Source: Phycisphaeraceae bacterium
GTDB taxonomy: Bacteria > Planctomycetota > Phycisphaerae > Phycisphaerales > Phycisphaeraceae
Reading direction: 5' to 3'
NCBI GenBank assembly: GCA_002686995.1
Contig: NYZC01000416.1
Span: 1-32,806 of the forward strand
DNA: 32,806 nucleotides
Translations under genes and position numbers: made by a program
In this document: piece by piece, positions 12,101 through 30,406 of the stretch
Numbering within the stretch: the stretch's first letter is position 1
Layout: each line of letters starts with the position of its first letter
The notes under the pieces: model-generated
Told to the model about the DNA's origin: nothing
The model's database searches: none
The model's input: the letters and a program-made list of their open reading frames with translations, nothing else

Positions 12101-14919
12101 TCCTGGTTTGCTCGCCCAAGAAACCTGATCCTGTGTTCGAACTGCACGGCGTCTGCATTGCCGAACGTCAGGTCCATCGATTCAGATGTCGAATCGGGCA
12201 AGAAAGCCCCGACCTCCGGATCAACCGCAGCATCAGTCAGATCGAGAAACGGAAACCCCTTGGACGTCTGGCCATCCGGTCGAGCAACGTACACCGACGC
12301 GGTATCGACCCTGTCCACAACGACGATGAGTGGAGCCCGCAGCGGGACTGCAGATCGATTCGAAACCGTCAGCCCCACATGAAGCTTGCCACCGCGATCG
12401 TCGTATGTCGTACGCTGATAGGCTGGATCCAGCAGGGCCGTCACATCGATCAGGTCAGAAGTATCGACGGGAGGGCCGGCCGCCGATCGCGGAACCGACG
12501 TCACCGGATCCGCCATCAGCGGCGGACCCGACAGGAACTGCAGATCGGATCGCATCACGACCCGGGTCTGCGAATCGCGATCATTGTTCACCAGGCGGGC
12601 GACCAGACGAGCGGCCGTGCCGGACGGCAGCGTCGACACGTCGAAGGTCACGACCGTGGCCCCATCCACACTGCTGACCGTGGTCCCGCCACCGGTAACC
12701 TGCCCCAGACCTTCCGTCCAGTTGAATGCAGCATCTCTGCCCAGTGCAATCGTCGGCACCCACGGCAAGCCGGCATCGTCCACGATCGCCAACTCGAACG
12801 CATCACGAACGGATGCCCTCGACGAATCCGTCGAGTCGAAGTCGACATCCAGGACCTCGATCGCGATCGCGGTCGCCCCGGGCTCGATGACGAAGGGCCA
12901 TTCATGCTCCACCAGGAAATCCGAGCGCTCGACGAGGACCACGTTCGGACGGGCCGGCACGAGGTCATCGATGGTGGTTTCGAAGACCAGATGGGAATCG
13001 GTGATGCGCCGCTCCGCGAAGAATACGGAGAACGGATACGTTTTTCCCTCAACCAGGTTCAGGCTATCGAGCGACACGAGATCCGCACCGATGGCGGGAT
13101 GAAGTCCACCGAGGTCGACTACGAGACGGTTGTCAATGAAGATCCACAGATCATCGTCGGCCTCGATCACTTCCAGATGCTGTCCACGACGATACGTGAA
13201 TTCGGCATGAAGCTCGAAAGTGACGTGATAGTTATGACAATCGACGATCTCATCGGCATCTCCGTCCTGGTCATCACGGTCACAGGCGGCCGGTTCGTAT
13301 TCCGCATCGGCGTCGCCGGAATTGAACAGCATGCCGTCGATAGGGAAGAACTCGTGGGTCGATGAATAGGCGACAGCAGCATCAAGAGGAGCCGACGTCC
13401 CCACGAACTGGAAGATACCCGGACGCAGCGGGTCCTCCACGAAATGTGCCGACACTTCCGTCCGGCGATTGAAGCGAGGCTCATCGCGGTACCAGTAGTT
13501 GAGCCACGGCGTCGACGACTCGAGATCGAACAGCACCGGGTCGGCCATCTGAAGACCGAAAGGAAGAACGGGACTCGGATTCCGTTGCGGCTTACCATCC
13601 GCAAGCTGTGGCAGGACGAGACCTGGCGTCGGTGCCGGTGCGATGAAGTGCTCGAAATCACGATGCGGCAGCGTCATCCGGCTCTCGGGCGCGGCGCTGG
13701 TCCAGGTGGATGCGTGGAAGTCTCGAACCGTTGCCGTGAGCTCCAGCGTTCTGACGTGTGCTAGAGTCGGGTCCGCGCCGCCGACTCCCGTCGGATCGAG
13801 CCCCAGGTCATTCGTGACCAGTAGCTTGTCGATTTGGAGTCCATCTTCTCGATCCGCAAGATCCAGCGAGTGCTCACCTGCCGTCAATGAGAACATCGTC
13901 GGCGCTTCGTACCAGGACCAGCGCGTCGGCAGTGTTCGGCCCGGTCGAACCTCCCAATTGATCCACGGACCGCCGTCGACGCGAAGCCATATCGAATCGG
14001 CATCCTCATGCGGTGCGATCATTCGTGCCCAGATCCGGTAGTCGTCTTCCGCATCGATCGAAACGTGGTGCTTGACGTCAGCACGCGCCGGCTGATCGAC
14101 GAGAGATTGTCCAGGAGTGAAGTTCGCAAGGAGACGCCCGTTCGAAGCCGTGGGGTCGCCGATCACCTCGAGCGCCGACACCGCCGCCGTACCCATCTCC
14201 GCCTCGCGCCAGATGGCATCACGGTCTCCCATGTCGAACATGAGGTCATAGTGTGAGTGCGTCGCGCCCGACACCGTGAAGTTGGCAAGGAGAACACCGA
14301 GATCGTCACTGCCGACCAGGCCGTCCCCGTTCAGGTCGCCCGCCGTCTTATCTCCGGGTGATACCCGTTTCGTTAGATTCGAAAGCAGGGTCGACAGATC
14401 ATCCGCACCGACCAGACCGTCGAGGTCCAGATCGCCGGGCGGGTAGGCGACCACGCGTGCGACGAATCCCTCGCCATGCGCCGCCGGGATGAATACGTGC
14501 TCGTGATCGGACGAAGTGATCGAGCGCGCGATCTCGGCGCCCTCCGCGTCGTATATATATAGATCCAGATCACCGACGGACGCATCGAACAGAATGGCGA
14601 CGTTGAGCGTGCCGGCGGCCGGAACCAGGACCTCGAAGAAGTCGTCGTTCCCTTCGGCGTGAATGCTCAGACCGTCCAGCGCGGTCGCGACACCGGGCTC
14701 GAGATCGACCGCGATCGCATCGTCAAATCGATCGTTCGGCTCAAACGGATCGCCGTTCAGGAGGATGCGCGGTTCAAGACCCTCCAGAGCTGCCCACCCC
14801 TGCCAGCGCGGACGATGCGCTCGCCACCAGTCACCAACCCGAGATATCCAGTACGGCCACCTGATCGATCCGCTCCTGATCGGCGCAGCGACACCGTCAT
14901 CCCGATCCGTCTCGTACAA
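109..14919 (-). CDS. giant LEPR-xLL / Ig-repeat / RHS (YD-repeat) surface protein
   Basis: A 4936-residue mosaic protein, probably exported and exposed at the cell surface. Approximate domain order: LEPR-xLL motif (residues 48-54, LEPRILL), the N-terminal mark of giant planctomycete proteins; PPC-like domain (58-155); two EF-hand/dockerin-like repeats (163-215, DLDLDGLVGADDL and DLNGDGLVGSDDL); CBM-like beta domain (220-375); fibro-slime domain (about 486-650); about fifteen cadherin/He_PIG-like Ig repeats (938-3045), typically starting NxxPxI and carrying DPDGD; a thrombospondin-C-like domain within them (about 1150-1357); an SdrD_B domain split by a propeller-like insert (1439-1884); RHS/YD shell from 3049 (GNFAISMTDLAV) to the core motif DPSG at 4695-4698, interrupted by a lectin-like insert (3588-3765); C-terminal tip 4699-4936. 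The start is a TTG directly after an in-frame TGA; AGGGA lies 11-12 bases upstream and no early ATG exists. The tip is AT-rich compared with the rest. Function is unknown: adhesion or contact-dependent toxin delivery are the reasonable guesses. Confidence 0.9.
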   Translation of the reverse strand: MYETDRDDGVAAPIRSGSIRWPYWISRVGDWWRAHRPRWQGWAALEGLEPRILLNGDPFEPNDRFDDAIAVDLEPGVATALDGLSIHAEGNDDFFEVLVPAAGTLNVAILFDASVGDLDLYIYDAEGAEIARSITSSDHEHVFIPAAHGEGFVARVVAYPPGDLDLDGLVGADDLSTLLSNLTKRVSPGDKTAGDLNGDGLVGSDDLGVLLANFTVSGATHSHYDLMFDMGDRDAIWREAEMGTAAVSALEVIGDPTASNGRLLANFTPGQSLVDQPARADVKHHVSIDAEDDYRIWARMIAPHEDADSIWLRVDGGPWINWEVRPGRTLPTRWSWYEAPTMFSLTAGEHSLDLADREDGLQIDKLLVTNDLGLDPTGVGGADPTLAHVRTLELTATVRDFHASTWTSAAPESRMTLPHRDFEHFIAPAPTPGLVLPQLADGKPQRNPSPVLPFGLQMADPVLFDLESSTPWLNYWYRDEPRFNRRTEVSAHFVEDPLRPGIFQFVGTSAPLDAAVAYSSTHEFFPIDGMLFNSGDADAEYEPAACDRDDQDGDADEIVDCHNYHVTFELHAEFTYRRGQHLEVIEADDDLWIFIDNRLVVDLGGLHPAIGADLVSLDSLNLVEGKTYPFSVFFAERRITDSHLVFETTIDDLVPARPNVVLVERSDFLVEHEWPFVIEPGATAIAIEVLDVDFDSTDSSRASVRDAFELAIVDDAGLPWVPTIALGRDAAFNWTEGLGQVTGGGTTVSSVDGATVVTFDVSTLPSGTAARLVARLVNNDRDSQTRVVMRSDLQFLSGPPLMADPVTSVPRSAAGPPVDTSDLIDVTALLDPAYQRTTYDDRGGKLHVGLTVSNRSAVPLRAPLIVVVDRVDTASVYVARPDGQTSKGFPFLDLTDAAVDPEVGAFLPDSTSESMDLTFGNADAVQFEHRIRFLGRANQEPVITTRPRISALVGMDYAYDPIATDPDEDALTFEVESAPDGMSVDRLTGRLEWMPSEAGVYPITLRVRDDFGGDDVQTFSIRVESFAPNRPPRITSVPITHTVVGDRFEDRIEAVDPDGDALLFGLVEGPEGLAVDAESGAITWIPTRHHLHSDDARHVIHVSVTDGRGGQAEDRYEAIVIVQEANGDPLFTSSPPTQVEPVREETTSMLLRSGFPDGWRSVDYDVPGLWNVAEDGTSVVQAHDFSGPSIWLAPQNAADDAFRFSGTFRADSTSGDDSIGVVFGYEDPRRFYLFDWVRSTSVANPVLSGTEAFERGMTVTRFDASGPVANSAFDHSDPSDGVVVLARNDVPWEPNHDYRFAIEWLGSRFSISITDAGGVTWLQDFATDGAARNSGPLRFGLFAHSQSVEFSDITMMPLSIYRYDADAVDPDDDEPLTYVLVDGPGAMMLDSGSGEITWKVPANIESGSMQDVVLRVEDERGGFDQQSFSVEVDDVVHGTIEGRKFEDVNRDGIRNRYRPELPMPGPSETPWITLRDAGGTVDQPIGVAHHAPSDSIVFSTASDSSNGFDIRSIASDGTDRIVATVLGSRAYSSIESVPTDHPGGFVPGDLFMGIGDSGRILRVTDGGETVITPWVDLGPESDALYAGLHFDRTGLLGGDLIAATSNGEVWRINSQGQATLVAAVAVDPLVGLMSGVVLVPADVDRYGPLSGRIVTGAGTELYAFDIDGVESPLVFDLDVPVRDIDLVPSELESGRHLFGADLGGDRLLVASGDQFRSMAGDLLLSQTKTFEEDSGLHRLFWDGRAIQVETLPMTSDSERPLIWAHVTFSPSGTTAVEPLPWEPGLAGWTVFLDADGDGELNDEERATRTDNAGVFRLTGLEPTSYIVREQDQDGWVQSSAGGVYAGPTAGAGGRPVKVEGQSHFDILIGADEVVTGVEFGNAGIGLPLNRNPEITSAPIRAAVVDLGFEYEVVIEDPDGDPIEFDLPMRPAGMVIDPQSGHLRWMPDERQLGGHNVIVRAMDDRGGIDLQSFRVHVTSGNEAPIIVSEPIRAVYPGDIFAYYVMAEDPNGDVLKYQLDPISTSLGMSIDADLGILTWHPIEPGSYVVGVSVDDHRGGVDHQSFVLTVEEGTTGSNRNPVITSLPVTTTIIGDEAGWQYVMTVTDPDGDAVLLQIEEGPNGLFVDSGSRLMKWSPTPSQAGDHSVVVVAEDGRGGRTVQSFTLTVLVAGMHREPIFETEPWRGPLAIDLPYRYDVSVRDPDGGEVSLWIGPETTADGMIIGDSAPGAIEWTPTAPGTFHVQINAEDDDGQVAQQLVDLVVLPNAPPRFMSRPHVDQLGAIAGQLYRYEVMIDDPNGDVIEIGLIEPQSGMTFDWIDTNRAALEWTPAGPGVLRLRLVATDSHNASAEQTFDVYVHDPDAPTNRPPLIMSSPRTRIGIDRTYLYEITAIDPDGDRLQFEIVEAPDTPIGVSISPIVRQGRDDLQIGLLRWTPGAGELGQHDLTIMVSDGRLTDLQAFQVHVDHRTSNEAPVILSSPVTHAVAGRLYQADLSATDPDGDPIFWSFASDSKAPAGMTIEHEGGARISWVPTVAQLGVHAIIAVVHDVHGARNELALRINVRGANVGPRFDSDPVTLGHVSKPYRYKAKSYDPDGDTLQYALVRKPSEQMGVSADGIVEWPDPTPGIHEVTLRVADPFGAGQDQDYLLYVSAFNSPPVIDSQPPPYAIIGRSYQHRIEASDAEDDAAGLPLSITIEGPIGVMGASGDFTYDPVTGWMGWTPDSSVVAGETYPFAITALDSSGAGLTQRFDITLLADDPPHLDLPERITTVAGGSMSVFLGPPDTVEVDSLPYAYRLLDAPSEMVIDQTTGVLTWTPGVADVTPTGHAGRLVAIKVHDRYGRSTVGQFHVIVVTDDQPPVVEVVPSEAPAIAGSTITVYVLATDNGAIRALELTANGHPLILDSSGATRLDISNSTAVTLVARATDSAGLAGESRFDLQVYDPVDPSAPTIEILAPAPGSIVTEPLDVVGSIIPDSMSLGDEIRHVRITLNSDFGTTVLVDDADAGPLHDSILARIDPTSLANGSYVLVVEAADAAGDQAIHRRTVEIDTGLKLGNFAISMTDLAVDLGGIPITVQRTYDTLSRDRQGAFGFGWSMHVLSTDVSTDIEPTGQEARGVFNPFRDGTRVSVTLPGGRRETFTFVPEPVDPPAGQLAGEIAASLLYRFTGIAQPAFVADRGVRSRLQVDKDLTLFRTDQGYVTGDGLAYNPTSERLSSVFRVTKADGTRFELDGANGRLLEVRDRQGNRLEVDPGRISSIDPVGRTVAMIEIERDRNGRIIAVTDPVGTQHPRGTSERARHTLSYDYDARGNLIVFSSRGDEPATTKYLYHEHDEHFLTGVVDARGVETLRLSIDSSSGRVTAVTDAAGGNAQFSPPIIRLDDPNGTRYIETISTESETSMTIELVKDGRGNTIRRIEHHLLPDNRLAYQISVFEFDAEGNQTGQGLPFTIADDEGHDRFRWLPDQFNWMSRSSYDNGRLTESIDALGRVISYDYDSRGDLRTVVDPLGRATRSEYNADGNLVSATEPSGIVTRFEYAPDRPDRLVRLARDQNDRAFEYDDRGLVDQVRDEAGIVRRFTYDALGNQQTAEYPWTATDFATSFDDDVFGSAGTSKGGFVLRTGQWLVNQGRLEASPVTPSGSDAHSIALLDVPVLSSRFEIKTVLEGSRESSAHWTNALVVFDYRDDDDFKIAGAFFGADQWRIGHIRNSAFEVLASADGSLNLSASYPVSVIADGRDVSVVAGEVTVVSHRFANDVDDGQIGLGTINASARFNSLSLHRSEVRIMTETHHDPQGRVVRSVGSDGAETETVYDLSGQVSRVIARRGALTISTIQHVHDVRGKRIETRTYSGEIDPDERPVTVSRNVYDASGRITHSVDAIEPALDSSVEGPVGTYTRYDALGRVVEVQRLADVDIVIEDDPSNAGFQRTRFVSSAPTPISTSRTVYDGAGRAGLRRNAGGLVEQSVYDVAGRLTRTIVDEDGDLTTLEDQLTSSFEYDAADRRVLVRDPMGREIRTEYDMSDQPTRTIFPDGSTARSVFDRQGRRVAAIDPMGLETTYEYDPISGQLLAVVLPAVEQPPEAGPGTILDPLNRGPLVNPRYEYEYDASGNQTLIQDPLGRETRFFYDHLNRLIARRLPLGQIERHFYDAGRLERSVDFEGNVTRYVYDPQGRIVSRAFFSPDLNTDVDAPTDSIAYAYGAAGRIESVADGRGITSFEYDVDGRQAVIRSPEGTIRYEYDRTTGRLARMSTGNDEQHPVTDTRYRYDVRGRLTAVDAHVRQGELIVDGSGLPAPETTSYAYDPVGKLDKLTFASGIVSDYEYDAFDRLVVLTHYHPDATPGDLSDNDVLARYAYKLRADGRRATALEQRDGGSPGPSDDSFTEIKWRYDALGRLIEERRDGPAYDEQYIDFYYYDLVGNRLEKQHVESPNFISPYQTVDRTTRYRYDSNDRLLFEQNIDPWFDDPTSTTTYAYGPNADPLSGVAGDWTFVTSKSVPYDDVTLEGPETHEFEYGVRGRLKRATITRNQQTTVSEYVYDPDGMRVQQRVTSSEDDRTVLYLVDRQNHSGHPQVVEERVDDGDAVPERSYLIGLDVIGQVDSGVEDMNFSALIVDGLGSTRIVVDDAGRFLQAYDFDGYGRPNAVDLRTRLLFAGEQFDHITENVYLRDRYYDVRSGRFNRVDPFSGNIVDPKSFQKYIYAYADPINLIDPSGRAPFSIKGQLITAGLISAGISVTVDTLSIAFAGAEKSIGRIAVDAAVNGTIGVIGGPIIGGVGRHVISKLFLNRWAVRVFGSKAIRYLLAPAINVVGVAGSRAVFATTAFVLQHELRRRDDEPPLTRSEILSVLIANFVVQSGYVGLEKGAAQSLTQRVSQWIRDRNNAFWEHLTTHVGKKVGDTYIDIGDDVIRSANLLDSIYILSSEVRLGDVQAGILISITSKLFDFIVSASTGD

Positions 14920-20276: not shown

Positions 20277-20723
20277 CTACGACGACGGGATCGAATCCGC
20301 CAGCTCGCACAGCGCCTGGTAATACTGCTCGATCTCGAGCCCGAGCAGCGTCGCGCCGTAAAGCTCCGTCTCCTCGCGCGTCACGACGGTGTCGCCGTAG
20401 TTGATGACGGGGATGTGGTACGCGATGAGCAGCGGCAAGGCTTCGGGCTGGTTCTCGAACCAGGGATGCACGAACAGGCAGAAGCCCTCCGAGGGTTGGG
20501 ATCCGAGAGGCTGCGCGAACGCGAACTCGCCCTTCTGCAGCGCCTCGGCGTCGAATCGCAGTCCCGTCGGATATCGGACGACCTCGCGATCGTCGAGCAT
20601 CCGTGAGATCACGTCGGCGTCGATGTAAAGACCGTACTTGAGGCGGGCGGCGTTCGCCTTTTCGACGATATGCTCCGCCAGCGACCGGCGGCCGTCCTCC
20701 TCGGTGAGCTTGCGATCAGGCAT
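20277..20723 (-). CDS. hypothetical protein, last gene of the nitrate operon
   Basis: 148 residues from the ATG at 20723, which overlaps the end of the ferredoxin gene by eight bases and suggests translational coupling. Two more ATG codons lie in frame 9 and 12 bases upstream (20732 and 20735) and could be used instead; none has a good ribosome site. I recognise no domain. Visible are a charged N-terminal helix ([20 protein letters not shown]), a mixed alpha/beta middle with FCLFVHPWF and [15 protein letters not shown] strands, and a closing helix ([15 protein letters not shown]). There is no signal peptide, membrane segment, heme motif or cysteine cluster, so it is probably cytoplasmic. Its place suggests a helper role in nitrate reduction, perhaps maturation or regulation, but that is guesswork. 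Confidence 0.7.
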
Positions 20724-21132
20724 CGACTGCATCATAGCAGCGGCCCGCCGTGCTCTCCGGCGCCGCGCGATACGCGCGGACGCGCAACGACAGCACGCCG
20801 CCGGGGCACGCATCGACGCACGACCCGCATCGCGTGCAGGCCGGATGATCGACCGCCCGGCCCTTCAGTGCGTAGTCCTGCATGACCCGGATGCCCATCG
20901 GGCAGTTGAGCGTGCACTGCACAAGGTTCAACGTGTCGAACGGGCACGCCTGCACGCACTGGCCGCACCGGATGCATGCCGCGAGAAAATGCGACTCGTC
21001 GCGGGCGCCGGGCGGTCGCAACATGGGGGTGGACCACGATCTCGATCCGGCCCGGTAGGCCCCCGCAGCGCCGGCGCCGATCGCCGCCCCGGCCGCCATC
21101 GCAAGCCATTCACGTCGCGTCACCTTCTCCAT
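20716..21132 (-). CDS. Tat-exported 2x[4Fe-4S] ferredoxin, NapG/NapF-like
   Basis: 138 residues. A twin-arginine signal ([21 protein letters not shown]) opens the protein, so it should fold with its clusters and be exported. Two cluster motifs are visible: [12 protein letters not shown] (from about residue 53) and [12 protein letters not shown] (from about residue 98), with an extra CTLNCP between them that is incomplete as a cluster site. NapG proteins usually carry four clusters, so this is a short relative. It probably passes electrons towards the periplasmic nitrate reductase or takes part in its assembly. The ATG lies six bases after the stop of the NapB-like gene, and the 3' end overlaps the next gene. 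A NapF-type role is less likely, because NapF stays in the cytoplasm. Confidence 0.8.
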
Positions 21133-21138
21133 CGCGCG

Positions 21139-21729
21139 TCACGGTTCCGGCACGTCTGCCTCGATGCTGCGCACCTGTACGTGGCAGGATCGGCATTTCG
21201 ACTTGAGCAGGATGCCCGGCATGCCCTTGTGCCGGACGATCGGCGCGCCGCGCAGCCCGTCCTCGTGGCACAGCAAGCAGTCGTCGCGCCGCCAGGTCCG
21301 GCGGTGCGATCCCGATGCGGGAATCATCGGCGGAAAGGCGTTGGCGTTGAACAGGCCCTTGTTCGGCTGCGCGGCGCGCTTCGCGCCGCGGGGCTTGCTG
21401 CCGGGCGCGATGACGTGACACGTACGACACTTCGCAACGAGGAGGATCGGCGGCATTCCGCGATGGACGACCGTCGGAGCCTCGCCGACGCCGGTTTCAT
21501 GGCAGCGCATGCAGTCATGGCGGATCCACGCGTCCTGGTGCCATTCCGTGTCCGGCAGGGTAGGCGGAAAGGCGTTGGCGTCGAACTTCCCGTCGCTCTT
21601 CGCGGCAGGCACCGCCCTGGCAGGTGTGTCCGGCGTCGCCCTGCCGGCGGTCGGCTTGCGGCTCTCGGCGACGGTGACGGCCACCAGCAACATCGTACCG
21701 ATCGAAGCGATCATCACCCAGCGCATCAC
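21139..21729 (-). CDS. duplicated NapB-like tetraheme cytochrome c
   Basis: 196 residues with an N-terminal signal/anchor (VMIASIGTMLLVAVTVA) and four CxxCH heme sites: CMRCH, CRTCH, CLLCH and CRSCH. The mature part is two copies of one module. Each starts NAFPP, goes on with a CxxCH about 18 residues later, then a conserved GMPxILL, and ends KCRxCHV. This is the layout of NapB (PPxIP, CLxCH, then CxxCHV), which normally has two hemes, so the gene appears to be an internal NapB duplication. NapB delivers electrons to NapA in the periplasm. The gene begins 18 bases after the napA stop, with AAAGGAG upstream; either GTG 21729 or ATG 21726 may be the start. Confidence 0.75.
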   Translation of the reverse strand: MMRWVMIASIGTMLLVAVTVAESRKPTAGRATPDTPARAVPAAKSDGKFDANAFPPTLPDTEWHQDAWIRHDCMRCHETGVGEAPTVVHRGMPPILLVAKCRTCHVIAPGSKPRGAKRAAQPNKGLFNANAFPPMIPASGSHRRTWRRDDCLLCHEDGLRGAPIVRHKGMPGILLKSKCRSCHVQVRSIEADVPEP

Positions 21730-21747
21730 AGCGCTCCTTTCAGCACG

Positions 21748-24069
21748 TCAGGCCTTCGCGAGCCTGACCGCGCACACCTTGAACTCAGGCTGCTTCGAGC
21801 CCGGATCGTACGCGTCGATCGTCACCCGGTTGATCAGGCTCGGGTCGTCGTCCCAGTGCATCGGCACGAACACCATGCCGGGGCGCGGGATGTTGACGAC
21901 GCGGGCGCGGATCACGGCCTCGCCACGCCGCGAGGTGATGCGCACCTTGCTTCGGTTGCGGATACCCAGCTTGCGGGCATCCTCGGGATGGATCTCGACG
22001 AAGCACTCGGGATAGGCGCGCTTCAATTCGTCCGCCTTCATGGTCATCGTGCCGGTATGCCAGTGCTCGAGCACGCGACCGGTCGACAGGACGTACGGGT
22101 ACTGTTCGTCGACCGGCTCCGCGGGCGGCTTGTGCGGGCGCAGCCAGACGATCGCCCGGTGATCCGGCGCGGCGTAGAACTTGGTCTCGCCCGGCGCAAG
22201 CTCATGGTCCGCGTACGGTCCGTTGTCGCGCAGCGGGTCCTCGCCCTTGACGAACCGGCGGCTCGTCCCGGGATGATCAGTCGTCGGCGCGGGCCACCGG
22301 ATGCCGCGCTCCCTGCGGAGCCTTTCCCGCGTGATGCCGTGGAAGTCGTACGCCGTGCCCTTACCCGCCTCGCGAAGCTCCTCCCACACGTCGTCGGTCG
22401 TCCTGAACTTCCCGGCGATGTAGCCGCGCGGCACCACGCCCTTCTTCTCGAGGCGACCGGCGAAATCGAGCAGGATGTCGAAGTCGCTGCGCGCCTCGCC
22501 CGGCGCATCGATGATCTGCGGGTGAAGCTGGTAGCGGCGCTCCGACATGCCGAACACGCCCGTCTTCTCGGCCCACATCGCGGCAGGCAGAACGACGTCG
22601 GCAAGCTCGGTCGTGCGCGTCGGGTACGCATCGATGACGCAAACGAAAGGCTTGCCGTCACGCGACTTGCCCATGGCGTCCCGGTGCGGCGTGGCGTTCG
22701 GCATCGAGTGACCGGGATTGGTCGTTAGGACGAGCATCGCCTTGATCTCGTCGCGCCCGAGGGCCTTGAACATCTCGACGGTGTTGAGGCCGGGCTTCGG
22801 ACGGATCGTGCCCTTTCGCGCGCCCCAGAGCTTTTCCATCTCGGCGCGATGCGCGGGCTTCTTCACCGAACGGCCGTACGGAAGGATGTGGCACAGCGAT
22901 CCCGTGTCGCGCACGCCGCCACAGGCGTTGGGCTGACCGGTGAGCGAGAACGGGGTCGCCCCCGGCTTGCCGATATTGCCGGTCAGCAGGTGGAGGTTGT
23001 GAATCAGGTTGTTCGCCCAGACGCCGGTAATGCGCTGGTTCAGGCCCATCGTCCACAGCGACATCGTCGGGCCGAACGAGAACAGCCGAGCGGCCTCCTC
23101 GATGAGGTGCGCCGGCACGCCCGAGATGATCTCGGCCCGCTGCGGCGAATACTGGTCGAGGAACTTCACGTAATCGTCGAAGCCGACCTTCACCGGCTCG
23201 CCGTCCTTCACGGCCTTGAACTGAACGTTTCGCTCGACGAACTCCCGATCGACCTTGTTCTCCCTGACGATCACGTGCGCCATCGCATGAAAAACGGGCA
23301 GGTCATAGCCGGGAATCGGATCCAGATGCACGTCGGCCATCGACACGACGGGGTTCTTGCGCGGGTCGCAGACGATCACCCGCACGTCGCGCCGCTCGGC
23401 CCGCGAAGCGAGAATGCGGTCGAAGATGACCGGGTGGCACTCGGCGGTGTTCGAGCCGATCAGGAAGAACACGCGGGCATGGTCGATGTCGTCGTACGAC
23501 CCCATCGGCTCGTCCTTGCCGAACGTCGTCACGTAGCCGCCGACGGCGCTGGCCATGCACAGCCGCGGGTTGCCCTCGACGTTGTTCGTGCCGATGCCGC
23601 CCTTGAACAGCCGGTTGGCGAGATAGCTCTCCTCCGTCATCGCCTGGCCGGATCCGTAATACGCGACGCTGTCGGCGCCGTGACGACGGATCGCGTCGGC
23701 GAACTTCGACGCGATCAGTTCCATCGCCTCGTCCCAGGGCGCCGGCTCGAGCCGGCCGTTCTTCCGGATCATCGGCCGGCGCAGCCGGTCCTCGGCCTGC
23801 ACGATCTTCGGCAGGAACAGCGCCTTGGCGCAGACGAGCCCGCGCGTGCTGGGGTGCTTCGGATCACCGCGCAGCGCGACCAGTCGGCCGTCGCGCACGC
23901 CCAGCAGGACGCCGCAGCCCGTGCCGCAGAAGCGGCAGACCGACTTGACCCATTTCGTGTCCGGCTGAGCCGTCTGCCCGAGCACCGGCAGCGACACGTT
24001 CGTTCCGACCGCGCCGGCGACACTCGCCATCGCGGCCGTCCTGATGAAATCTCTTCGTGTGGTGTGCAT
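21748..24069 (-). CDS. napA: periplasmic nitrate reductase catalytic subunit NapA
   Basis: 773 residues. Reduces nitrate to nitrite at a molybdenum bis-MGD centre in the periplasm. The Tat signal is TRRDFIRTAA. The [4Fe-4S] site follows (CRFCGTGCG at about residues 46-54, fourth cysteine in GLVCAK), with the conserved lysine just after it and the NapA-type FLPKI segment. The molybdenum ligand cysteine is in NPRLCMASA, the NapA form. The segment GLNQRITGVWANNLIHNLHLL and the following FSLTGQPNACG are characteristic of NapA rather than of formate dehydrogenase. The C-terminal molybdopterin-binding domain runs from about residue 650. The length is somewhat shorter than proteobacterial NapA (about 830), as in shorter lineages. 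The ATG has GAGGA six bases upstream and lies ten bases after napD. A formate dehydrogenase or assimilatory NasA role is unlikely. Confidence 0.9.
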   Translation of the reverse strand: MHTTRRDFIRTAAMASVAGAVGTNVSLPVLGQTAQPDTKWVKSVCRFCGTGCGVLLGVRDGRLVALRGDPKHPSTRGLVCAKALFLPKIVQAEDRLRRPMIRKNGRLEPAPWDEAMELIASKFADAIRRHGADSVAYYGSGQAMTEESYLANRLFKGGIGTNNVEGNPRLCMASAVGGYVTTFGKDEPMGSYDDIDHARVFFLIGSNTAECHPVIFDRILASRAERRDVRVIVCDPRKNPVVSMADVHLDPIPGYDLPVFHAMAHVIVRENKVDREFVERNVQFKAVKDGEPVKVGFDDYVKFLDQYSPQRAEIISGVPAHLIEEAARLFSFGPTMSLWTMGLNQRITGVWANNLIHNLHLLTGNIGKPGATPFSLTGQPNACGGVRDTGSLCHILPYGRSVKKPAHRAEMEKLWGARKGTIRPKPGLNTVEMFKALGRDEIKAMLVLTTNPGHSMPNATPHRDAMGKSRDGKPFVCVIDAYPTRTTELADVVLPAAMWAEKTGVFGMSERRYQLHPQIIDAPGEARSDFDILLDFAGRLEKKGVVPRGYIAGKFRTTDDVWEELREAGKGTAYDFHGITRERLRRERGIRWPAPTTDHPGTSRRFVKGEDPLRDNGPYADHELAPGETKFYAAPDHRAIVWLRPHKPPAEPVDEQYPYVLSTGRVLEHWHTGTMTMKADELKRAYPECFVEIHPEDARKLGIRNRSKVRITSRRGEAVIRARVVNIPRPGMVFVPMHWDDDPSLINRVTIDAYDPGSKQPEFKVCAVRLAKA

Positions 24070-24079
24070 GGCGTCATCC

Positions 24080-24358
24080 TCAAGGCATCTCTGGAGCGCC
24101 CGCCGAGGGGCGCGGGATATCCGATTCGTCCTCGATGTTCACGTAGACGGGAAAGCACCCCGTTACGCCCTCCACCCTCCGCAGATCTCGTTCGAGCACG
24201 CCGTGCGCATCGTCGAGCGAGCCGGCCTCGATGATCACGCCCACCGTGCCGGGCCGGTCGAGATCGAACAGCTCGACCCCGCGGATGGCCGACAGGCCGT
24301 CGCGCACGGATAACTCCTGTCCGGGCAGGAACCGTACATAGCCGCCGATTGTCGCCAC
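24080..24358 (-). CDS. napD: NapD-like chaperone for NapA
   Basis: 92 residues with the ferredoxin-like fold pattern of NapD: an opening strand (IGGYVRF), a helix, then strands GVELFDLDRPGTVGVIIEAG and GVTGCFPVYVNIED. In known systems NapD binds the Tat signal of NapA in the cytoplasm and holds back export until the molybdenum cofactor is loaded. The start is GTG, with AAGGA eight bases upstream lying across the end of the octaheme gene; only four bases separate the two genes. The position directly before napA supports the call. The protein is small and divergent, so the name rests on both fold pattern and neighbourhood. Confidence 0.8.
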   Translation of the reverse strand: MATIGGYVRFLPGQELSVRDGLSAIRGVELFDLDRPGTVGVIIEAGSLDDAHGVLERDLRRVEGVTGCFPVYVNIEDESDIPRPSAGAPEMP

Positions 24359-24362
24359 GGGA

Positions 24363-25817
24363 TCAGTCCTTCTTGTAGCGGGCCTTGAATTCCTCGGCAG
24401 CCTTCTTTCGCGCCGCCTTCTTCGCCGGATCCATCTTCCCGATGAACCAGCGGTGATTGGGCGTGCTGAGCACCTCGTTCAGCTTCGCCTGCAGCTTCTT
24501 CGCCGCCTCGATGCGCTTCGGGTCGCCCGAGGCCTTCGCCTCCTTGACCAGGTGGCGCAGCCCCGAGACGTAGTGGGTGTAGAACGTCTTGGCGACGTCG
24601 TAGGTGCCGTGCCAGTGCGTGTAGTCCGGACCCATCATGGACGCGCCGTGCCGCGCGCGGCGCCCTTCGTGGTGCCACAGCTCCCACCACGACCAGTCGA
24701 CCTCGTGCGTGAAGTTCACGTCCGGAAGCTTCTTCGCGGCCTTGGCCAGCCCGTAGAGCTCCTTGCCGGGTATCGCGAACTTCGTGTTGTAGAGCTTGAT
24801 CAGCTCGTCGTACTGAACGTAGAAGTTGTCGATCCACGAATTGTTGTGGCAGTTCTGGCAGACGTTCTTCATGTTCGCTCGGCGCGTCTGCCATGGCACC
24901 TTCGCGCCGGGCAGGCCGAGCTTGGCGTCGGACGTCTCCGGGCGGATCGAGATCGGCGGACGGTTGTTCCAGCTGATCCGCATGCCGATATCGTGGGTGA
25001 CCGGCTGGTCCTTCGTCGCCGACATGTGGCAGGTCGCACAGGTCGGCGCGGCGCTGTAGTCCTCGCCGACGATCCACTTCTCGTTCTTCAGGTTCATCTT
25101 GTCGATGTTGGCGAAGAAGGCGATGCCGTGCTTCGACTCCTCGTAGATCTCCTTCTGCGGGTGATCGGGGCCGAGATGGCACTTGCCGCAGGTGTCGGGA
25201 TGGCGCGCCTGCGCGGCGGAGAAGCTGTGACGCACGTGGCACGCATTGCACGCGCCTTCGCTGCCGTCGGGATTGATTCGGCCGATGCCGCTGTTGGGCC
25301 AGGTGGCCGGATCCAGCTTGCCGCCGGGCAGCACCTTCACCTCCGAGCCGTGGCACTGCCAGCACCCGTTCACCGCCGCCGCCGAGTTGCCGTGGGGAAA
25401 CCCGGGCGTCTTCATTTCGGCGTTGCCCTCCACGACCTCGGCGAGGAAGTTGTCGAGCGAGCCGAGGATGCGCGCGCCCTTGGCGTGGTGCGACGACGCA
25501 AACTCCTCCACCTCCTTCGAGTGACACTTCGCGCAGTCCCTCGGCGTGACGAGGACCGAGATCGTCTGGTCGTAGTGCCGGATCGCGTCCTTGTCGTCGC
25601 GCTGGGCCGCGTGGCATTCGAAGCAGCCGACGTTCGCGCGATAGTGCTTGCTCGCCCCCCACTGCTCGTACAGCGCGCGGCTTTGCTTCTTGTGACACTC
25701 GATGCACTCCGCCGACTGGCGGCTGATGTCGCGCAGGCCGAACGACTGCGCCCAGGCCGTGGCGTGGAGGCCCGTCCACACGGTGGCGGTCAGGCAGAAG
25801 ATGATCGTGCGTCTCAT
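24363..25817 (-). CDS. octaheme cytochrome c of the hydroxylamine oxidoreductase (HAO) family
   Basis: 484 residues: a signal peptide (FCLTATVWTGLHATAWA), then eight CxxCH heme sites (CIECH, CFECH, CAKCH, CWQCH, CNACH, CGKCH, CATCH, CQNCH). Family marks are RHSFSAAQ after the fifth heme site, PTCATCHM at the seventh with a following TH, and the C-terminal MMGPDYTHWHG. The order and spacing match HAO, not pentaheme NrfA. HAO enzymes either oxidise hydroxylamine/hydrazine or, in lineages such as Campylobacterota and Ignavibacteria, reduce nitrite. Tyr399, in YTHWHG, lies in the part of the protein that carries the heme-crosslinking tyrosine in Nitrosomonas HAO; whether it is equivalent needs an alignment. 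The setting next to nap genes favours nitrite reduction to ammonium. AAAGGAG is seven bases before the ATG. The tail is lysine/alanine-rich. Confidence 0.88.
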   Translation of the reverse strand: MRRTIIFCLTATVWTGLHATAWAQSFGLRDISRQSAECIECHKKQSRALYEQWGASKHYRANVGCFECHAAQRDDKDAIRHYDQTISVLVTPRDCAKCHSKEVEEFASSHHAKGARILGSLDNFLAEVVEGNAEMKTPGFPHGNSAAAVNGCWQCHGSEVKVLPGGKLDPATWPNSGIGRINPDGSEGACNACHVRHSFSAAQARHPDTCGKCHLGPDHPQKEIYEESKHGIAFFANIDKMNLKNEKWIVGEDYSAAPTCATCHMSATKDQPVTHDIGMRISWNNRPPISIRPETSDAKLGLPGAKVPWQTRRANMKNVCQNCHNNSWIDNFYVQYDELIKLYNTKFAIPGKELYGLAKAAKKLPDVNFTHEVDWSWWELWHHEGRRARHGASMMGPDYTHWHGTYDVAKTFYTHYVSGLRHLVKEAKASGDPKRIEAAKKLQAKLNEVLSTPNHRWFIGKMDPAKKAARKKAAEEFKARYKKD

Positions 25818-25830
25818 GGCGGCACTCCTT

Positions 25831-27066
25831 TCAGGTGGCGGCGGGCGGGCGCATCGCGGCCGCGTCGGGCTGGTCGTACGTCAGCCGACCGGACAGGACG
25901 GGGATCGTGATGCGCACGAGAATCGTGAAGATAAGCATGCCGAAGGCCCAGATGCCGAGCGTGACCAGGATCTCGTTGATCGTCGGCTGATACTCGACGA
26001 TCTCGCCGAGGGGCGTCGGGATGAACGCGGGCACGATCAGCCCCATGCCCTTCTCGATCCAGATACCGACGATCAGCAGCACGCACGCGACGTTGAGGTA
26101 GCGCACGCTGCGTGCGAGCGGCAGGTAGAGGATGATCAGGGCGATCGTGCTCAGCACGAGCGACGACCAGATCCACGGCACGAGGCCGTAGTAGCCGTGC
26201 AATCCGAAGTAGAGATAGCGCATCGACGCGATGTGCGTTGATCCGGTGTAGAACTCCGTGAACAGCTCGCTCACGAGCAGGAACACGTTGATCGTCAGCG
26301 CGACGAGGATGATCTGGCGCAACGTCATCAGCGCCTGGCGCGGCACGTGGTACGTCGTGAACCGGTCGATGACCTGCAGGGCGAGAATGATGAACGCGGG
26401 TCCGGCGGCGAACGCCGAGGCCAGGAATCGCGGCGCGATGATCGCCGAGTTCCAGAACGGCCGGCCTCCGAGTCCCACGTAGAGGAAGGCCGTCACGGTG
26501 TGAATGCTGATTGCCCAGATGATCGCGGTGAAGACGAACGGCACGAGGAACAGCGCCTTGCGCGGCTGGCGGCGCCGGTAGGCGCAATAGACCATGTACC
26601 CGGGAATGTGCAGGTTCAGGACCAGGTAGCCGTTGAGGACGATCACGTCCCAGGTCAGCATCGACAGCGGAAAGTTGAAGCGGCGGAACAGGTGGTGGAA
26701 GCGATCGGGACGGCCGAGATCGACCGTGACGAAGAGCAGGCACATGATGATCGCCGATACTGCGAGCAGCTCGCCGAAGATCACCAGGTCGTGAAGCTCG
26801 ACGTTTCGGTAGACGTAGACGGGAATCACGAGCATCACTGCGGCGGCGGCCATACCGACGAGGAAGGTGAAGTTCGCGATGTACAGGCCCCACGAGACCT
26901 GGTCGGTCATGCCGGTGGTGATCAGGCCGCTGACGAGCTGCCGGCAATAGGCGTTGACGCCGAACAGCACGACGATCGTAAGCAGCATCATCCACGCGTA
27001 GTACGTCCATTCGCCGACGAAGCTGATGCGGAAGCAGCGCCAGAGGAAGCGAAGGTACTCCTTCAC
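25831..27066 (-). CDS. NrfD/PsrC-family ten-helix quinol-interacting membrane protein
   Basis: 411 residues, with ten hydrophobic segments by eye (first near residues 16-37, last near 370-395). Ten helices put it with the DsrP/HybB/ActC branch of the NrfD family rather than the eight-helix PsrC branch. Such proteins exchange electrons between menaquinol and a periplasmic Fe-S partner. The start is a GTG at 27066 that overlaps the stop codon of the Fe-S gene by four bases (GTGA). The open frame continues upstream, but only as a shadow of that gene. With the NrfC-like protein and tetraheme cytochrome ahead of it, it probably forms the quinol-oxidising module of the operon, replacing NapC/NrfH, which are absent here. 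Confidence 0.85.
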   Translation of the reverse strand: MKEYLRFLWRCFRISFVGEWTYYAWMMLLTIVVLFGVNAYCRQLVSGLITTGMTDQVSWGLYIANFTFLVGMAAAAVMLVIPVYVYRNVELHDLVIFGELLAVSAIIMCLLFVTVDLGRPDRFHHLFRRFNFPLSMLTWDVIVLNGYLVLNLHIPGYMVYCAYRRRQPRKALFLVPFVFTAIIWAISIHTVTAFLYVGLGGRPFWNSAIIAPRFLASAFAAGPAFIILALQVIDRFTTYHVPRQALMTLRQIILVALTINVFLLVSELFTEFYTGSTHIASMRYLYFGLHGYYGLVPWIWSSLVLSTIALIILYLPLARSVRYLNVACVLLIVGIWIEKGMGLIVPAFIPTPLGEIVEYQPTINEILVTLGIWAFGMLIFTILVRITIPVLSGRLTYDQPDAAAMRPPAAT

Positions 27067-28058
27067 GACGTGCCCTCCCCGTCGGCCGCGCCGCTGCGCG
27101 GGTAGCGCTCGTCGAAGTAGTAGAAGAATCGCGGAAGCGTGCCGAGCTCCTCCTTCAAAACGAAGATGCGCTTCGACTTCAGGATCTCCGACACCTCGCT
27201 GTGCGGGTCGAGCACGTTGCCGAACTTGCGCGCCCCGGTGGGGCACACCTCGAGGCACGCCGGCATCTGCCCTTCGCGGGTGCGGTGCAGGCAGAAATGA
27301 CACTTCTCCATGACGCCCTTCTGGCGCGGGCGGTTCGAGAGATAGCTCATGTCCGCGTTGAGCTTCTGCTTCGGCACCTTCGGCTCGGCGAAGTTGAACC
27401 GCCGCGCCCAGTACGGGCAGGCGGCCTCGCAGTACCTGCACCCGATGCACCAGTCGTAGTCCACGACCGTGATGCCGTCCGGCTCCTGCCACGTCGCTTC
27501 GACCGGGCACACCTTCACGCAAGGTGGCTTGGCGCACTGGTGGCACTGCACCGGCATGTAGAAATGATTCTTGTCCGGTACCGTGGGTCGCTCGTACCGG
27601 TGGTTGCCGCGCTCCATGTCGATCGAACCCCGCGGCATCTCCAGCACGCGGATGTACTGGATCTCCGGATCGCGGCTCTGGTTGTTCTCCTCGACGCACG
27701 CATGCACGCACTTGCGGCAGCCGATACAGCGGCTGAGGTTCAGCGCGTAGACGAACTCGACGCCGTCCTTGGCGCGAACGTCGCGCAGCTCGGGACGAAC
27801 GTCGTAGAGCTTCTCGACCTCCTTGCGGATCCGTCGCAGCGCCGTCTCCATCTCTTCGGGCGTCATCTCCTTGTAGTGCTTCTGCAGGAACTTCTCGATC
27901 GACGGCATGTCATCGGGATCGAGATCCCGCAGCGGGCTCAGCGCCGCCACCGTCGCCGCCATCGCGCTGACCGCAGCGGCGCCGATGCGCAGAAAGCTGC
28001 GGCGCCCGATGGGCTTCGTCCGCGGCGCGTCGCCGTTGGGAAGTACGGGAAGCTCCAT
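27063..28058 (-). CDS. NrfC-like Tat-exported 4x[4Fe-4S] protein
   Basis: 331 residues. The Tat signal is GRRSFLRIGAAAV (residues 18-30). Four cluster motifs in the DMSO-reductase-B/NrfC order are visible: CIGCRKCVHAC (111-121), CHQCAKPPCVKVC, CIGCRYCEAAC and CHFCLHRTREGQMPACLEVC. A charged helical stretch (about residues 50-95) lies between the signal and the first cluster. It should sit on the periplasmic face and wire the NrfD membrane protein to heme proteins. The ATG directly follows the TAG of the tetraheme gene, and the 3' end overlaps the NrfD start, so the three are co-translated. A role as electron subunit of some other molybdoenzyme is possible, but no second one is present. Confidence 0.88.
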   Translation of the reverse strand: MELPVLPNGDAPRTKPIGRRSFLRIGAAAVSAMAATVAALSPLRDLDPDDMPSIEKFLQKHYKEMTPEEMETALRRIRKEVEKLYDVRPELRDVRAKDGVEFVYALNLSRCIGCRKCVHACVEENNQSRDPEIQYIRVLEMPRGSIDMERGNHRYERPTVPDKNHFYMPVQCHQCAKPPCVKVCPVEATWQEPDGITVVDYDWCIGCRYCEAACPYWARRFNFAEPKVPKQKLNADMSYLSNRPRQKGVMEKCHFCLHRTREGQMPACLEVCPTGARKFGNVLDPHSEVSEILKSKRIFVLKEELGTLPRFFYYFDERYPRSGAADGEGTS

Positions 28059-28832
28059 CTACTGGTCGTCCTCCTCGTCTTCGTCGTGCGTGTCGTGCGT
28101 GTCGTGGATATCTGCTTCATGCGGGTCAACCGCGTCATGGGCGTGCGCGGCACGCTGCCACTTGCGCAACGGGTCGGCCTGCATGACAGGCGACTCGTGA
28201 TGGTCCGGCGATGGAGGCTTGAGCTGCATCCGCAACGTGTTCGGGCCGGGCAGCGGTCTGAACTTCGGATAGGCCGGCGCGTGCGGATCGTGGCACTCGA
28301 CGCACGTGAAGCGCCGTGCTTCACCCCGCGTCCGGTCCCAGTACCCCGTCGTCTTGCCGTGCATGCCCTTCTCCCAGTCGCGGTACGTCGGGCCGTGACA
28401 CTGCCGGCAGAGCTTTTGCGACTCGGTGAACGGCACGGTCGTCCCGCCGCGGATCGCCAGGCGATCGCGATTTTCACCGTGATGGCAGTAGGCGCAGCGG
28501 TCGTTGACGCCGTGATCGAGCCGGATGTGCGTGTGCTGCGTCAGCGCACTTGGCTGCTCGCGCATCGTCTGCAGCGACGCGTGACATTCCATGCAAGTCC
28601 AGGTGAACCCGGCGATCTCGATCCTGGGCGGCTCGCCGAGCGGCGTGCGCCGCGGCCCGATGTCGAGCATGCCCGCCTCGACGACAACGGGCTTGCCGGT
28701 CGGCGTCGGCTCGAGGTCGGGACCCACGAGGAACCATGCGGCCAGCGCGATGAACAGCAACGTGATGACGGGAGCGACCCATCGCTCGCCGCCAGCACCT
28801 GCACGAGTTCGAGCATCATCCCGACTGACCAT
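28059..28832 (-). CDS. membrane-anchored tetraheme cytochrome c, first gene of the nitrate operon
   Basis: 257 residues. One N-terminal membrane helix (VAPVITLLFIALAAWFLV, residues 19-36) anchors a periplasmic domain with four CxxCH sites: CMECH (from residue 80), CAYCH, CRQCH and CVECH. The C-terminus (about 225-257) is rich in histidine and acidic residues (HDTHDTHDEDEEDD). The sequence does not look like NapC/NrfH beyond the anchor and the heme count. Next to NrfC- and NrfD-like genes it resembles the cytochrome subunits of Qrc/Act-type complexes, so it probably passes electrons from the NrfCD module to NapB and the octaheme protein. AAAGGA lies eight bases before the ATG. A direct NapC-like role cannot be excluded. 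Confidence 0.82.
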   Translation of the reverse strand: MVSRDDARTRAGAGGERWVAPVITLLFIALAAWFLVGPDLEPTPTGKPVVVEAGMLDIGPRRTPLGEPPRIEIAGFTWTCMECHASLQTMREQPSALTQHTHIRLDHGVNDRCAYCHHGENRDRLAIRGGTTVPFTESQKLCRQCHGPTYRDWEKGMHGKTTGYWDRTRGEARRFTCVECHDPHAPAYPKFRPLPGPNTLRMQLKPPSPDHHESPVMQADPLRKWQRAAHAHDAVDPHEADIHDTHDTHDEDEEDDQ

Positions 28833-28913: not shown

Positions 28914-29290
28914 AAGGGAGGGAGCGGGGAGCCGGGGCCGGGAGCGGGGAGCAGTCAGTGGGCTCGCTTCAATCTCACAATCGATTTCTTCAGGATCGAA
29001 TAGATCTCATTGCAAAGCTCGACACGTTCGTGAAGCAACTGATGCGGCAGCCATTGTCGCAGTCGCTGATAGCGCCCTTTCGTCTCGACCGTCGAACCCC
29101 GCGCGATATCGAAATGGCGCCCCAGTGACCCCATGTCATTGACCACATGGTCAAACAGCGCGAGCGCCTTCCGATACGCCCCAAACTCATTCAATCGATC
29201 AATAGCCACCTGATCCTCCGATCGTTAACCCCGGCCCAATACAAGTGTTCTCCGCTCCCCGCTCCCCGCTACCCGCTACCCGCTCCTCGC
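28914..29290. mobile_element. small cassette: four-helix-bundle gene between inverted G-rich heptamer repeats
   Basis: The left border (28915-28953) is built of GGGAGCG/GGGGAGC units. The right border (29249-29290) is the same text in reverse complement, CCCGCTC / CCCGCTA units repeated every seven bases. Between them lies one small gene. The left repeat touches that gene's stop, and the right repeat supplies the last codons and stop of the alcohol dehydrogenase gene. Genes of this protein family often sit in such repeat-flanked insertions and inside 23S rRNA intervening sequences. No transposase is present, so mobility would depend on something else. Confidence 0.5.
28955..29209 (-). CDS. 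shortened four-helix-bundle (23S rRNA IVS-type) protein
   Basis: 84 residues from a GTG start, with GGAGG five bases upstream. The N-terminus (FGAYRKALALFDHVVNDM) matches the first helix of the four-helix-bundle / S23 family. The rest (FDIARGSTVETKGRYQRLRQWLP, then a helix ending near SILKKSIV) matches its C-terminal half. Family members are about 115-125 residues, and the expected central part, with its NIAEG-like turn, is missing. So this looks like an internally deleted copy, in frame and perhaps still translated. The function of the family is unknown; relatives occur in rRNA intervening sequences and as accessory proteins of diversity-generating retroelements. Confidence 0.6.
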   Translation of the reverse strand: MAIDRLNEFGAYRKALALFDHVVNDMGSLGRHFDIARGSTVETKGRYQRLRQWLPHQLLHERVELCNEIYSILKKSIVRLKRAH

Positions 29291-30406
29291 CCGCTCGTAG
29301 AGCGCGGCGCAGTCTTCGACGGTCATCGGCCTCGGGTTGGATTGCGAGCAGTGGTCGGCCAGGGCGTGCTCGGCCAGGGGTCTCAGGTCGTCGGCCGTCA
29401 CGCCCATGGCGCCGAGCGACGTGGGAAGGCCCAGGTCGCGGACGAGGTCGGCGAACGCGCCCGGGAGGTCGGCCGGGCCGGTCAGGCCGAGGCGATCGGC
29501 CATCATCTGCATCTTTTCCTGGCACGCGTCGAGGTTGAACTCGAGGACGTGCGAAAGAAAGATCGCGTTCAGCGTGCCGTGGTGCAGGTTCAGGCGCTCG
29601 AGCGCCCCGAGCGGGTGGCTGAGCGCGTGGACGGCGCCGAGGCCTTTCTGAAAGGTCATGCCGCCGGCCAGCGCGCATACCATCATCTCCCGGCGATGCT
29701 CGAGATCGTTCGGATGATCGATGGCCCGGCGCAGATGGTGCCAGCCGCGCTCGAGCCCGTCGATCGCGATCGCGTCGGCGATCGGATTGTCGTCCGGGCT
29801 GCAGAGGTTCTCGACGCAGTGGGACAGCGCGTCCATGCCCGTCGCCGCCGTCAGGCCCGCCGGCATCGAGCACGTCAGACGGGGGTCGCAGACCGCCGCG
29901 TCGGGAATGAGCTTCGGATTGATCAGCGCCAGCTTCCGGCCCGTATCCAGGGTGACCAGCGCGGCGCGGCCGACCTCGCTGCCGCTGCCGGCCGTCGTCG
30001 GCACCGCGATCAGCGGCGGCAGTCGATCGCCCCGGATGCGCTCGGCGCCACCATGGATCAGCGCGTAGTTCGACAACGGAGGCTCGTGCTCCACCAGCAG
30101 ACCGGCGGCCTTGGCAAGGTCGATCGACGAACCTCCGCCGACCGCGACCGTCCCGTCGCAGTCGTGCGACCGGTATTGCTCGAGCGCCTCCCGCGCCCCC
30201 GCCTCGGTGGGATTGGTCCGGACCTGATCGTAGATCGCCACCGGCTTCAGACCGAGCCGCTCGATCAGCCCGATCTCGATCAGGGTCGGATCGGTCACCA
30301 GCAGCGGTCGGGCGACGTTCAGATCGGCCAGCAGCGCCGGAAGAACTGCCGCGGCATCGACGTCGAAGTGCACGTTCGTCAGGTACTTGATGTTGGCCTG
30401 CATCAT
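29276..30406 (-). CDS. iron-containing alcohol dehydrogenase
   Basis: 376 residues of the group III, iron-dependent alcohol dehydrogenase family: a cytoplasmic enzyme with an N-terminal NAD(P)-binding half and a C-terminal helical, metal-binding half. Visible marks are GGGSSIDLAKA (near residue 90), PTTAGSGSE (near 137), GMDALSHCVE and the metal-binding histidines in GAVHALSHPLG and LHHGTLNA. The length is normal. The start is one of two adjacent ATG codons. The final residues and TAG come from a heptamer repeat that borders the neighbouring cassette, so the original C-terminus may have been replaced. It is divergent from the arsenate reductase gene. The family oxidises or reduces small alcohols and aldehydes, 4-hydroxybutyrate or maleylacetate; which one applies cannot be read here. 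Confidence 0.92.
   Translation of the reverse strand: MMQANIKYLTNVHFDVDAAAVLPALLADLNVARPLLVTDPTLIEIGLIERLGLKPVAIYDQVRTNPTEAGAREALEQYRSHDCDGTVAVGGGSSIDLAKAAGLLVEHEPPLSNYALIHGGAERIRGDRLPPLIAVPTTAGSGSEVGRAALVTLDTGRKLALINPKLIPDAAVCDPRLTCSMPAGLTAATGMDALSHCVENLCSPDDNPIADAIAIDGLERGWHHLRRAIDHPNDLEHRREMMVCALAGGMTFQKGLGAVHALSHPLGALERLNLHHGTLNAIFLSHVLEFNLDACQEKMQMMADRLGLTGPADLPGAFADLVRDLGLPTSLGAMGVTADDLRPLAEHALADHCSQSNPRPMTVEDCAALYERARSG

Follow-up and report, generated by a model that had tools for sequence, protein, structure and literature searches.

A nine-gene operon that joins a periplasmic nitrate reductase to an octaheme cytochrome c (OCC) and an NrfD-family membrane module was found on the minus strand of a 32,806 nt stretch of the genome of Phycisphaeraceae bacterium GCA_002686995.1 (contig NYZC01000416.1, positions 1 to 32,806; hereafter the window). 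The operon is real, coherent and probably functional, and we consider it likely that it reduces nitrate via nitrite to ammonium, with the OCC acting instead of NrfA and with quinol electrons fed by the NrfD module. We infer that this module feeds both enzymes and that ammonium is the product. The nine open reading frames (ORFs) run from 28832 to 20277 and are all intact. Their identities and order were obtained from hidden Markov model and PDB searches: tetraheme cytochrome c (cyt4), iron-sulfur (Fe-S) subunit, NrfD-family protein, OCC, NapD, NapA, tandem NapB-like cytochrome, NapG-like ferredoxin and a small protein. The junctions, from the first gene to the last, are 0, -4, 13, 4, 10, 18, 6 and -8 bases, which bears out an earlier note on this DNA that had described nine tightly spaced or slightly overlapping genes on one strand. 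The gene-order search proposed there found the same gene sets again in other genomes; the arrangement is therefore more than chance.

Homology of the OCC to HAO and IhOCC is indicated by PF13447, by PDB matches and by eight CXXCH motifs. The nearest solved structure is IhOCC of Ignicoccus hospitalis (4qo5, E 1.4e-49), followed by Nitrosomonas HAO (7e-17) and Kuenenia HDH (2e-9); the comparison with HAO-type structures gave E 1e-17. When 129 proteins were aligned, the column that holds Tyr467, the cross-linking residue of NeHAO, was Trp in 120 of 120 OCCs and Tyr in NeHAO, KsHOX, KsHDH and three Scalindua paralogues; the offset of the alignment at this site is uncertain by a few residues, and still no strictly conserved Tyr occurs in the region. 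The only nearby Tyr of the window OCC, Y399, is Phe, Ile or Trp in 25 of the 120 OCCs. In the tree, the window OCC sits among planctomycete OCCs, long branches away from HAO, HOX and HDH, and is nearer to IhOCC than to anammox HAO/HAOr, although the deep branching order is uncertain because the references have long branches. A grouping with hydroxylamine- or hydrazine-oxidising HAO, which the earlier note had named as evidence against its own proposal and for which it had suggested an octaheme tree, was not found, since IhOCC is the nearest relative of known structure, the cross-link column is Trp and the tree places the protein away from HAO and HDH. As judged from its sequence, the OCC is of the reductive type, and its candidate activity is probably the reduction of nitrite or hydroxylamine. 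The AlphaFold model of the OCC, built from a 10-row alignment only, reached a predicted local distance difference test (pLDDT) value of 46 and was therefore left out of the fold searches.

Three other identities of the OCC were considered and rejected. The fourth heme motif is CWQCH and not the CXXCK by which ONR is defined (PMC10716430). The NrfA profile PF02335 scores 18.8 bits (cut-off 24.1), and the protein has eight hemes, not five. The third was an oxidative HAO or HDH. Running of the system in the oxidative direction, in which the OCC would oxidise hydroxylamine and the NrfD complex would pass the electrons to quinone, is hardly credible: membership of the HAO superfamily speaks for it, but the conserved Tyr for the P460 cross-link is missing, the OCC is associated with a nitrate reductase, and ammonia-oxidation genes are not reported in Phycisphaerae in the portion of PMC11266412 drawn on here.

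The NrfD-family protein passes the curated cut-off of the DsrP model NF045798 (419.5 bits, cut-off 350) and scores 23 bits with the NrfD equivalog; in the PDB search it matched subunit C of alternative complex III (ACIII) weakly. The Fe-S subunit scores 175.6 bits with DsrO, below the cut-off of 200, and 108 bits with NrfC. An NrfC-like and NrfD-like pair had been predicted beforehand; the Fe-S protein and the NrfD-family protein are indeed present, but both are better matched by DsrO and DsrP. The DsrMKJOP complex shares these two subunit types with the operon, which differs from it in the tetraheme cytochrome beside an octaheme enzyme, in the DsrO score below cut-off and in having no DsrMK. 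A canonical Nrf system (NrfABCD) was rejected, as NrfA is absent and the pair is DsrOP rather than NrfCD. The first gene of the module, cyt4, is kept in relatives, and its product scores slightly below the cut-off of the Cytochrome_C7 profile.

The nearest solved relative of NapA is that of D. desulfuricans (2jio, E 2.5e-245), with 819 bits versus 432 for the best formate dehydrogenase chain. A Tat motif is present, and the N-terminal 4Fe-4S motif and the conserved Cys region (NPRLCMASAVGGY) were aligned with solved NapA. The scores with the full-length NCBIfam models are below cut-off (TIGR01706, 648 bits versus 931; PRK13532, 677 versus 904); because the protein is of the shorter D. desulfuricans type, it was assigned by its closest solved relative. 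The halves of the NapB-like protein are 57% identical over 60 aa (E 9e-27), a true tandem duplication. The Pfam NapB model PF03892 gave no match to this protein, but it matched the counterparts at the same position beside OCC and NapA in loci L026 and L155 (2e-8 and 4e-7). Of the duplicated NapB proposed earlier, the duplication thus stands, whereas the family assignment is carried by the counterparts and not by the window's own protein.

Six relatives from the same order keep the set cyt4, Fe-S, NrfD, OCC and small protein, with OCC 67-76% and NrfD 72-80% identical. Of these six and the window, just two, the window and genome G016, have nap genes between OCC and small protein, and their NapA proteins share no more than 42% identity. 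In the NapA tree, a first lineage contains the window and loci L045, L046 and L156 together with NapA of Thermodesulfobacteriota (D. desulfuricans type), and a second contains G016, L155 and Verrucomicrobiota loci, with 3ml1 and the canonical 2nya as best structures. Because the two lineages separate in the tree, different nitrate reductases have been joined to one module, even in the same slot. Read from gene content and sequence, the core unit is cyt4-FeS-NrfD-OCC-small protein, widespread without nap and extended in some carriers by nap cassettes from two lineages. In 80 loci from named species genomes a same-strand NrfD gene accompanies the OCC in 47, NapA occurs within the stretch in 19 and both occur in 11; the carriers in this set span more than a dozen phyla, and a scan of species genomes found at least 570 relatives of the OCC.

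Co-occurrence was determined in a sample of the class comprising 198 genomes of at least 85% completeness, with thresholds placed at gaps in the score lists (OCC >700 bits, NrfA >200 bits, NapA >450 bits in sum). OCC was found in 34 genomes, some of which (families f8 and f19) carry a longer OCC beside NapA without NrfD genes, and NrfA in 36; no genome has both (expected 6.2; Fisher one-sided p 0.0005, genomes treated as independent). Five families contain both OCC genomes and NrfA genomes. NapA is present in 15 genomes, eight with OCC, three with NrfA and four with neither (OCC versus NapA p 0.0009, genomes likewise treated as independent). In all eight genomes with both, NapA lies within 1.4 kb of OCC, as expected from the linkage claimed in the earlier note.

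The rpoB of the genome is 73% identical to that of two Phycisphaerales metagenome-assembled genomes (MAGs), while identity is 59-69% with most of the other Planctomycetota compared, Scalindua among them, and 45-50% with Verrucomicrobiota, Lentisphaerae, Thermodesulfobacteriota and Thioglobus. Relatives of OCC and NapA likewise come from Planctomycetota, and contig and genome agree on the planctomycete host that had been predicted. In a search of the whole assembly with PF02335 (NrfA), only the OCC itself was found, below cut-off. PF03264 (NapC/NrfH), PF03063 (Hcp) and TIGR02376 (NirK) gave no match, and the searches did not extend to NirS and NorB. At 87.6% completeness of the assembly, each absence carries a doubt of about one in eight. 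Within these bounds the reported lack of NapC, NrfH and NrfA extends from the operon to the rest of the genome, and the second observation that the earlier note had named against its proposal, NapC/NrfH and NrfA encoded elsewhere, was not made either.

The families NrfD, DsrP and PsrC are quinol-reactive membrane subunits, and DsrO/PsrB Fe-S proteins and multiheme carriers pass the electrons on. In the operon, menaquinol would be oxidised at the DsrP-type NrfD protein, and the electrons would move through the DsrO-like Fe-S protein to the membrane-anchored cyt4. From cyt4 they may reach the OCC, which would reduce nitrite (and hydroxylamine) in place of NrfA, and also NapA, directly or via the tandem NapB-like cytochrome, for the reduction of nitrate to nitrite. 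NapD and the NapG-like ferredoxin may serve maturation or an accessory electron path.

Ammonium is favoured as the product because cultured Thermodesulfobacteriota form it and because no Hcp was found in the window's genome. Thermosulfurimonas dismutans and Dissulfuribacter thermophilus converted 10.0 mM nitrate to 9.85 and 9.91 mM ammonium (PMC5276818, 2017). Several points weigh against nitrate ammonification by the operon. The literature search found no biochemistry for any OCC of the window clade. The Kuenenia HAOr, which likewise lacks the Tyr cross-link, makes NO (Ferousi 2021, as cited in PMC12758564), and an HAO-type enzyme of Nautilia without the cross-link may stop at hydroxylamine (PMC3701875). 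NapA does not occur within the fetched stretch in 61 of the 80 OCC loci. The co-occurrence tests ignore phylogeny, and just two families account for 25 of the 34 OCC genomes. Finally, the gene absences are provisional because of the incompleteness of the genome.

Two alternatives build on these points. The same machinery may release another product, either NO, in the manner of Kuenenia HAOr, or hydroxylamine, as in the reverse hydroxylamine:ubiquinone redox module (reverse-HURM); the outcome would then be partial denitrification or detoxification, not ammonification. Trp at the cross-link column is common to the window OCC and a Scalindua HAOr-like protein, and the authors of PMC11266412 propose NO or ammonium for an octaheme protein of Phycisphaerae. 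This alternative is nonetheless unlikely, though it deserves to be taken seriously, for the window OCC is nearer to IhOCC than to the anammox proteins, cultured bacteria with a similar cluster turn nitrate stoichiometrically into ammonium while nitrite, N2O and N2 stay undetected (PMC5276818), and hydroxylamine would need another outlet, since Hcp is not found in the genome. Alternatively, the NrfD-OCC unit may act on a metal or on a sulfur compound such as sulfite, tetrathionate or polysulfide, and nap would adjoin it by chance. The closeness of two subunits to DsrP and DsrO and the many loci without NapA would fit such a substrate, and sulfur compounds are named as an alternative in PMC5276818. 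It is rendered improbable by the adjacency of NapA and OCC wherever a genome of the class holds both, by the joining of two NapA lineages to the module and by the mutual exclusion of OCC and NrfA.

The reading as a nitrate-ammonifying operon has a published precedent, and the statement in the earlier note that the combination is undescribed has to be withdrawn: Nap, an HAO-type protein, NrfD, an Fe-S protein and a cytochrome c, without NapC or NrfA, were published in 2017 (PMC5276818). The 11-gene cluster of T. dismutans and D. thermophilus consists of napMADGH, two unknown genes, an HAO homologue, NrfD, a 4Fe-4S protein and a cytochrome c, with no NapC, NapB or NrfA (PMC5276818). The Thermodesulfobacteriota locus L149 has the same gene set and order: a cytochrome of 191 aa (4 hemes), Fe-S (255), NrfD (394), OCC (542 aa), two unknowns, NapM, NapA, NapD, NapG and NapH. 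Its OCC, Fe-S protein and NapA are 43%, 39% and 46% identical to those of the window, and its NrfD gave no BLAST match to the window NrfD. In locus L148 the OCC stands together with NapA, a NapM-like cytochrome and an NrfD of DsrP type (53%). Thus the published cluster resembles the window operon in having cytochrome c, Fe-S protein, NrfD and octaheme beside NapA, NapD and a ferredoxin, without NapC or NrfA, the window genome being incomplete. It differs in lacking NapB and in having NapM, NapG, NapH and two further genes; the window operon, in turn, contains neither NapM nor NapH but a tandem NapB-like protein, a single short ferredoxin, the small conserved protein and a DsrP-type NrfD.

Caldithrix abyssi (Nap-epsilonHao, PMC5317091) and Deferribacter autotrophicus (napMADGH-hao-hcp, PMC6896113) also have Nap adjoining a reductive octaheme without NapC or NrfA; however, quinol oxidation is assigned there to a Rieske/cytochrome b, ACIII or NapGH and not to an NrfD module of the cluster, and Deferribacter has Hcp. 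The reverse-HURM of Nautilia profundicola (PMC3701875) resembles the operon in combining Nap with an HAO-type nitrite reductase without the cross-link Tyr, but it uses the NapC/NrfH-type cytochrome cM552 and Hcp. A canonical reverse-HURM was rejected for the window, whose 87.6% complete genome gave no match to PF03264 or PF03063. From the same class or phylum, and the same protein superfamily, an octaheme 'Onr' was reported in Phycisphaerae, including the cultured Poriferisphaera corsica (PMC11266412, 2024), and hao and napAB in Oslofjord MAGs (PMC10732223, 2023), several of which carry the window-type OCC (L050, L060, L069, L118). The parts of both papers considered here contain no report of an NrfD-OCC-Nap operon, and the fourth motif of the window OCC is CXXCH, not the CXXCK of ONR. 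New, then, is the planctomycete form of the operon, with a DsrP-type NrfD, a tandem NapB, one short ferredoxin and the conserved small protein but neither NapM nor NapH. New as well are the view of the operon as a module joined by NapA of two lineages, the finding that OCC and NrfA exclude each other in the class, and the occurrence of the NrfD-OCC unit in so many phyla.

No Pfam or NCBIfam family was found for the small protein. Its AlphaFold model has a pLDDT of 95.8, and Foldseek against PDB gave no significant match (best E 0.41). A second structural comparison returned IrrE, PprI, abylysin and selecase at a middling Z of 7-9 over about 100 aligned residues. HEXXH is absent, and the matching helix has Y-H-x4-N-Y-G in its place; owing to this absence and the middling Z no peptidase function is claimed. 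With low confidence, the model may be read as a zincin-like fold that lacks catalytic activity; the protein might serve as a chaperone or in assembly. Some relatives have a Cys-rich tail at the end.

Further OCC types and arrangements were observed in the relatives. A longer OCC of about 550 aa occurs in the same class (L153, L154, L158 and L032-L034), and in L153, L154 and L158 it adjoins a NapA gene without NrfD genes. A third type of about 420 aa with eight hemes (L035-L044) is 31-35% identical to the window OCC and has no other operon genes nearby. Two OCC genes per locus, 55-66% identical to the window OCC, are present in L104, L107 and L076, which suggests duplication or neofunctionalisation. 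The anammox bacterium Candidatus Scalindua sp. (L087) carries an NrfD-OCC module of the window clade besides its own HAO/HDH paralogues. Immediately 3' of the small protein in G016 (L026:12568-16416) lies a gene for a 1282-aa fusion of ResB and a CcsA-type cytochrome c maturation protein, which fits a multiheme operon.

The genes of the operon are listed in Table 1. Two starts were corrected: the NrfD-family gene starts with GTG at 27066, giving a 4-base overlap with the Fe-S gene, and for the last gene 20723 is the most likely start (148 aa). No FNR-like site with up to two mismatches was found in the 440 bases upstream of the operon, and Rfam and tRNA scans of the window gave no match. Upstream of the operon, 29276-30406 (minus strand) encodes an iron-containing alcohol dehydrogenase with no evident link to it (nearest model 4-hydroxybutyrate dehydrogenase, 468 bits, cut-off 500). 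A single 4936-aa ORF at 109-14919 (minus strand) has PA14, thrombospondin C-terminal, many Ig-like and RHS repeat domains and was read as a giant surface or secreted RHS-type protein.

Table 1. Genes of the operon in transcriptional order, with window coordinates
Product	Coordinates	Strand	Features and basis
cyt4, membrane-anchored tetraheme cytochrome c, 257 aa	28059..28832	-	one N-terminal transmembrane segment, 4 CXXCH
Periplasmic Fe-S electron-transfer subunit, DsrO/NrfC/PsrB family, 331 aa	27063..28058	-	twin-arginine signal, profile match
NrfD-family integral membrane protein, DsrP type, 411 aa	25831..27066	-	about 9-10 hydrophobic segments
OCC, reductive HAO/OCC family, 484 aa; candidate nitrite reductase	24363..25817	-	8 CXXCH, Sec-type N-terminus
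NapD-like chaperone, 92 aa	24080..24358	-	PF03927 26.4 bits (cut-off 28)
NapA, catalytic subunit of periplasmic nitrate reductase, 773 aa	21748..24069	-	Tat signal, Desulfovibrio desulfuricans type
Tandem-duplicated NapB-like tetraheme cytochrome c, 196 aa	21139..21729	-	internal repeat, counterparts
NapG/NapF-like periplasmic ferredoxin, 138 aa	20716..21132	-	twin-arginine signal, two 4Fe-4S motifs; NapG N-terminal part 77.5 bits
Conserved cytoplasmic small protein, about 148 aa, fifth module member	20277..20723	-	conservation, fold model

The operon suggests that a DsrP-type NrfD module can supply quinol electrons to both Nap and nitrite reduction. More tentatively, cyt4-DsrO-DsrP-OCC-small protein might be a widespread quinol:nitrite reductase that has no name as yet and stands in for NrfAH in several phyla, Planctomycetota and Verrucomicrobiota among them. 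It might conserve energy via NrfD, would have nap as an add-on, and would escape nrfA and onr counts entirely. Nitrate ammonifiers are counted in surveys by nrfA and recently also by onr (PMC10716430); such surveys would miss the OCC, since it has no CXXCK and scores under the NrfA cut-off. In the class of the window the OCC is about as common as NrfA (34 versus 36 of 198 genomes), and its relatives, spread over many phyla, suggest that the conversion of nitrate to ammonium is underestimated. If the OCC makes ammonium, the nitrogen-retention capacity of sediments and oxygen-poor waters would have been partly overlooked.

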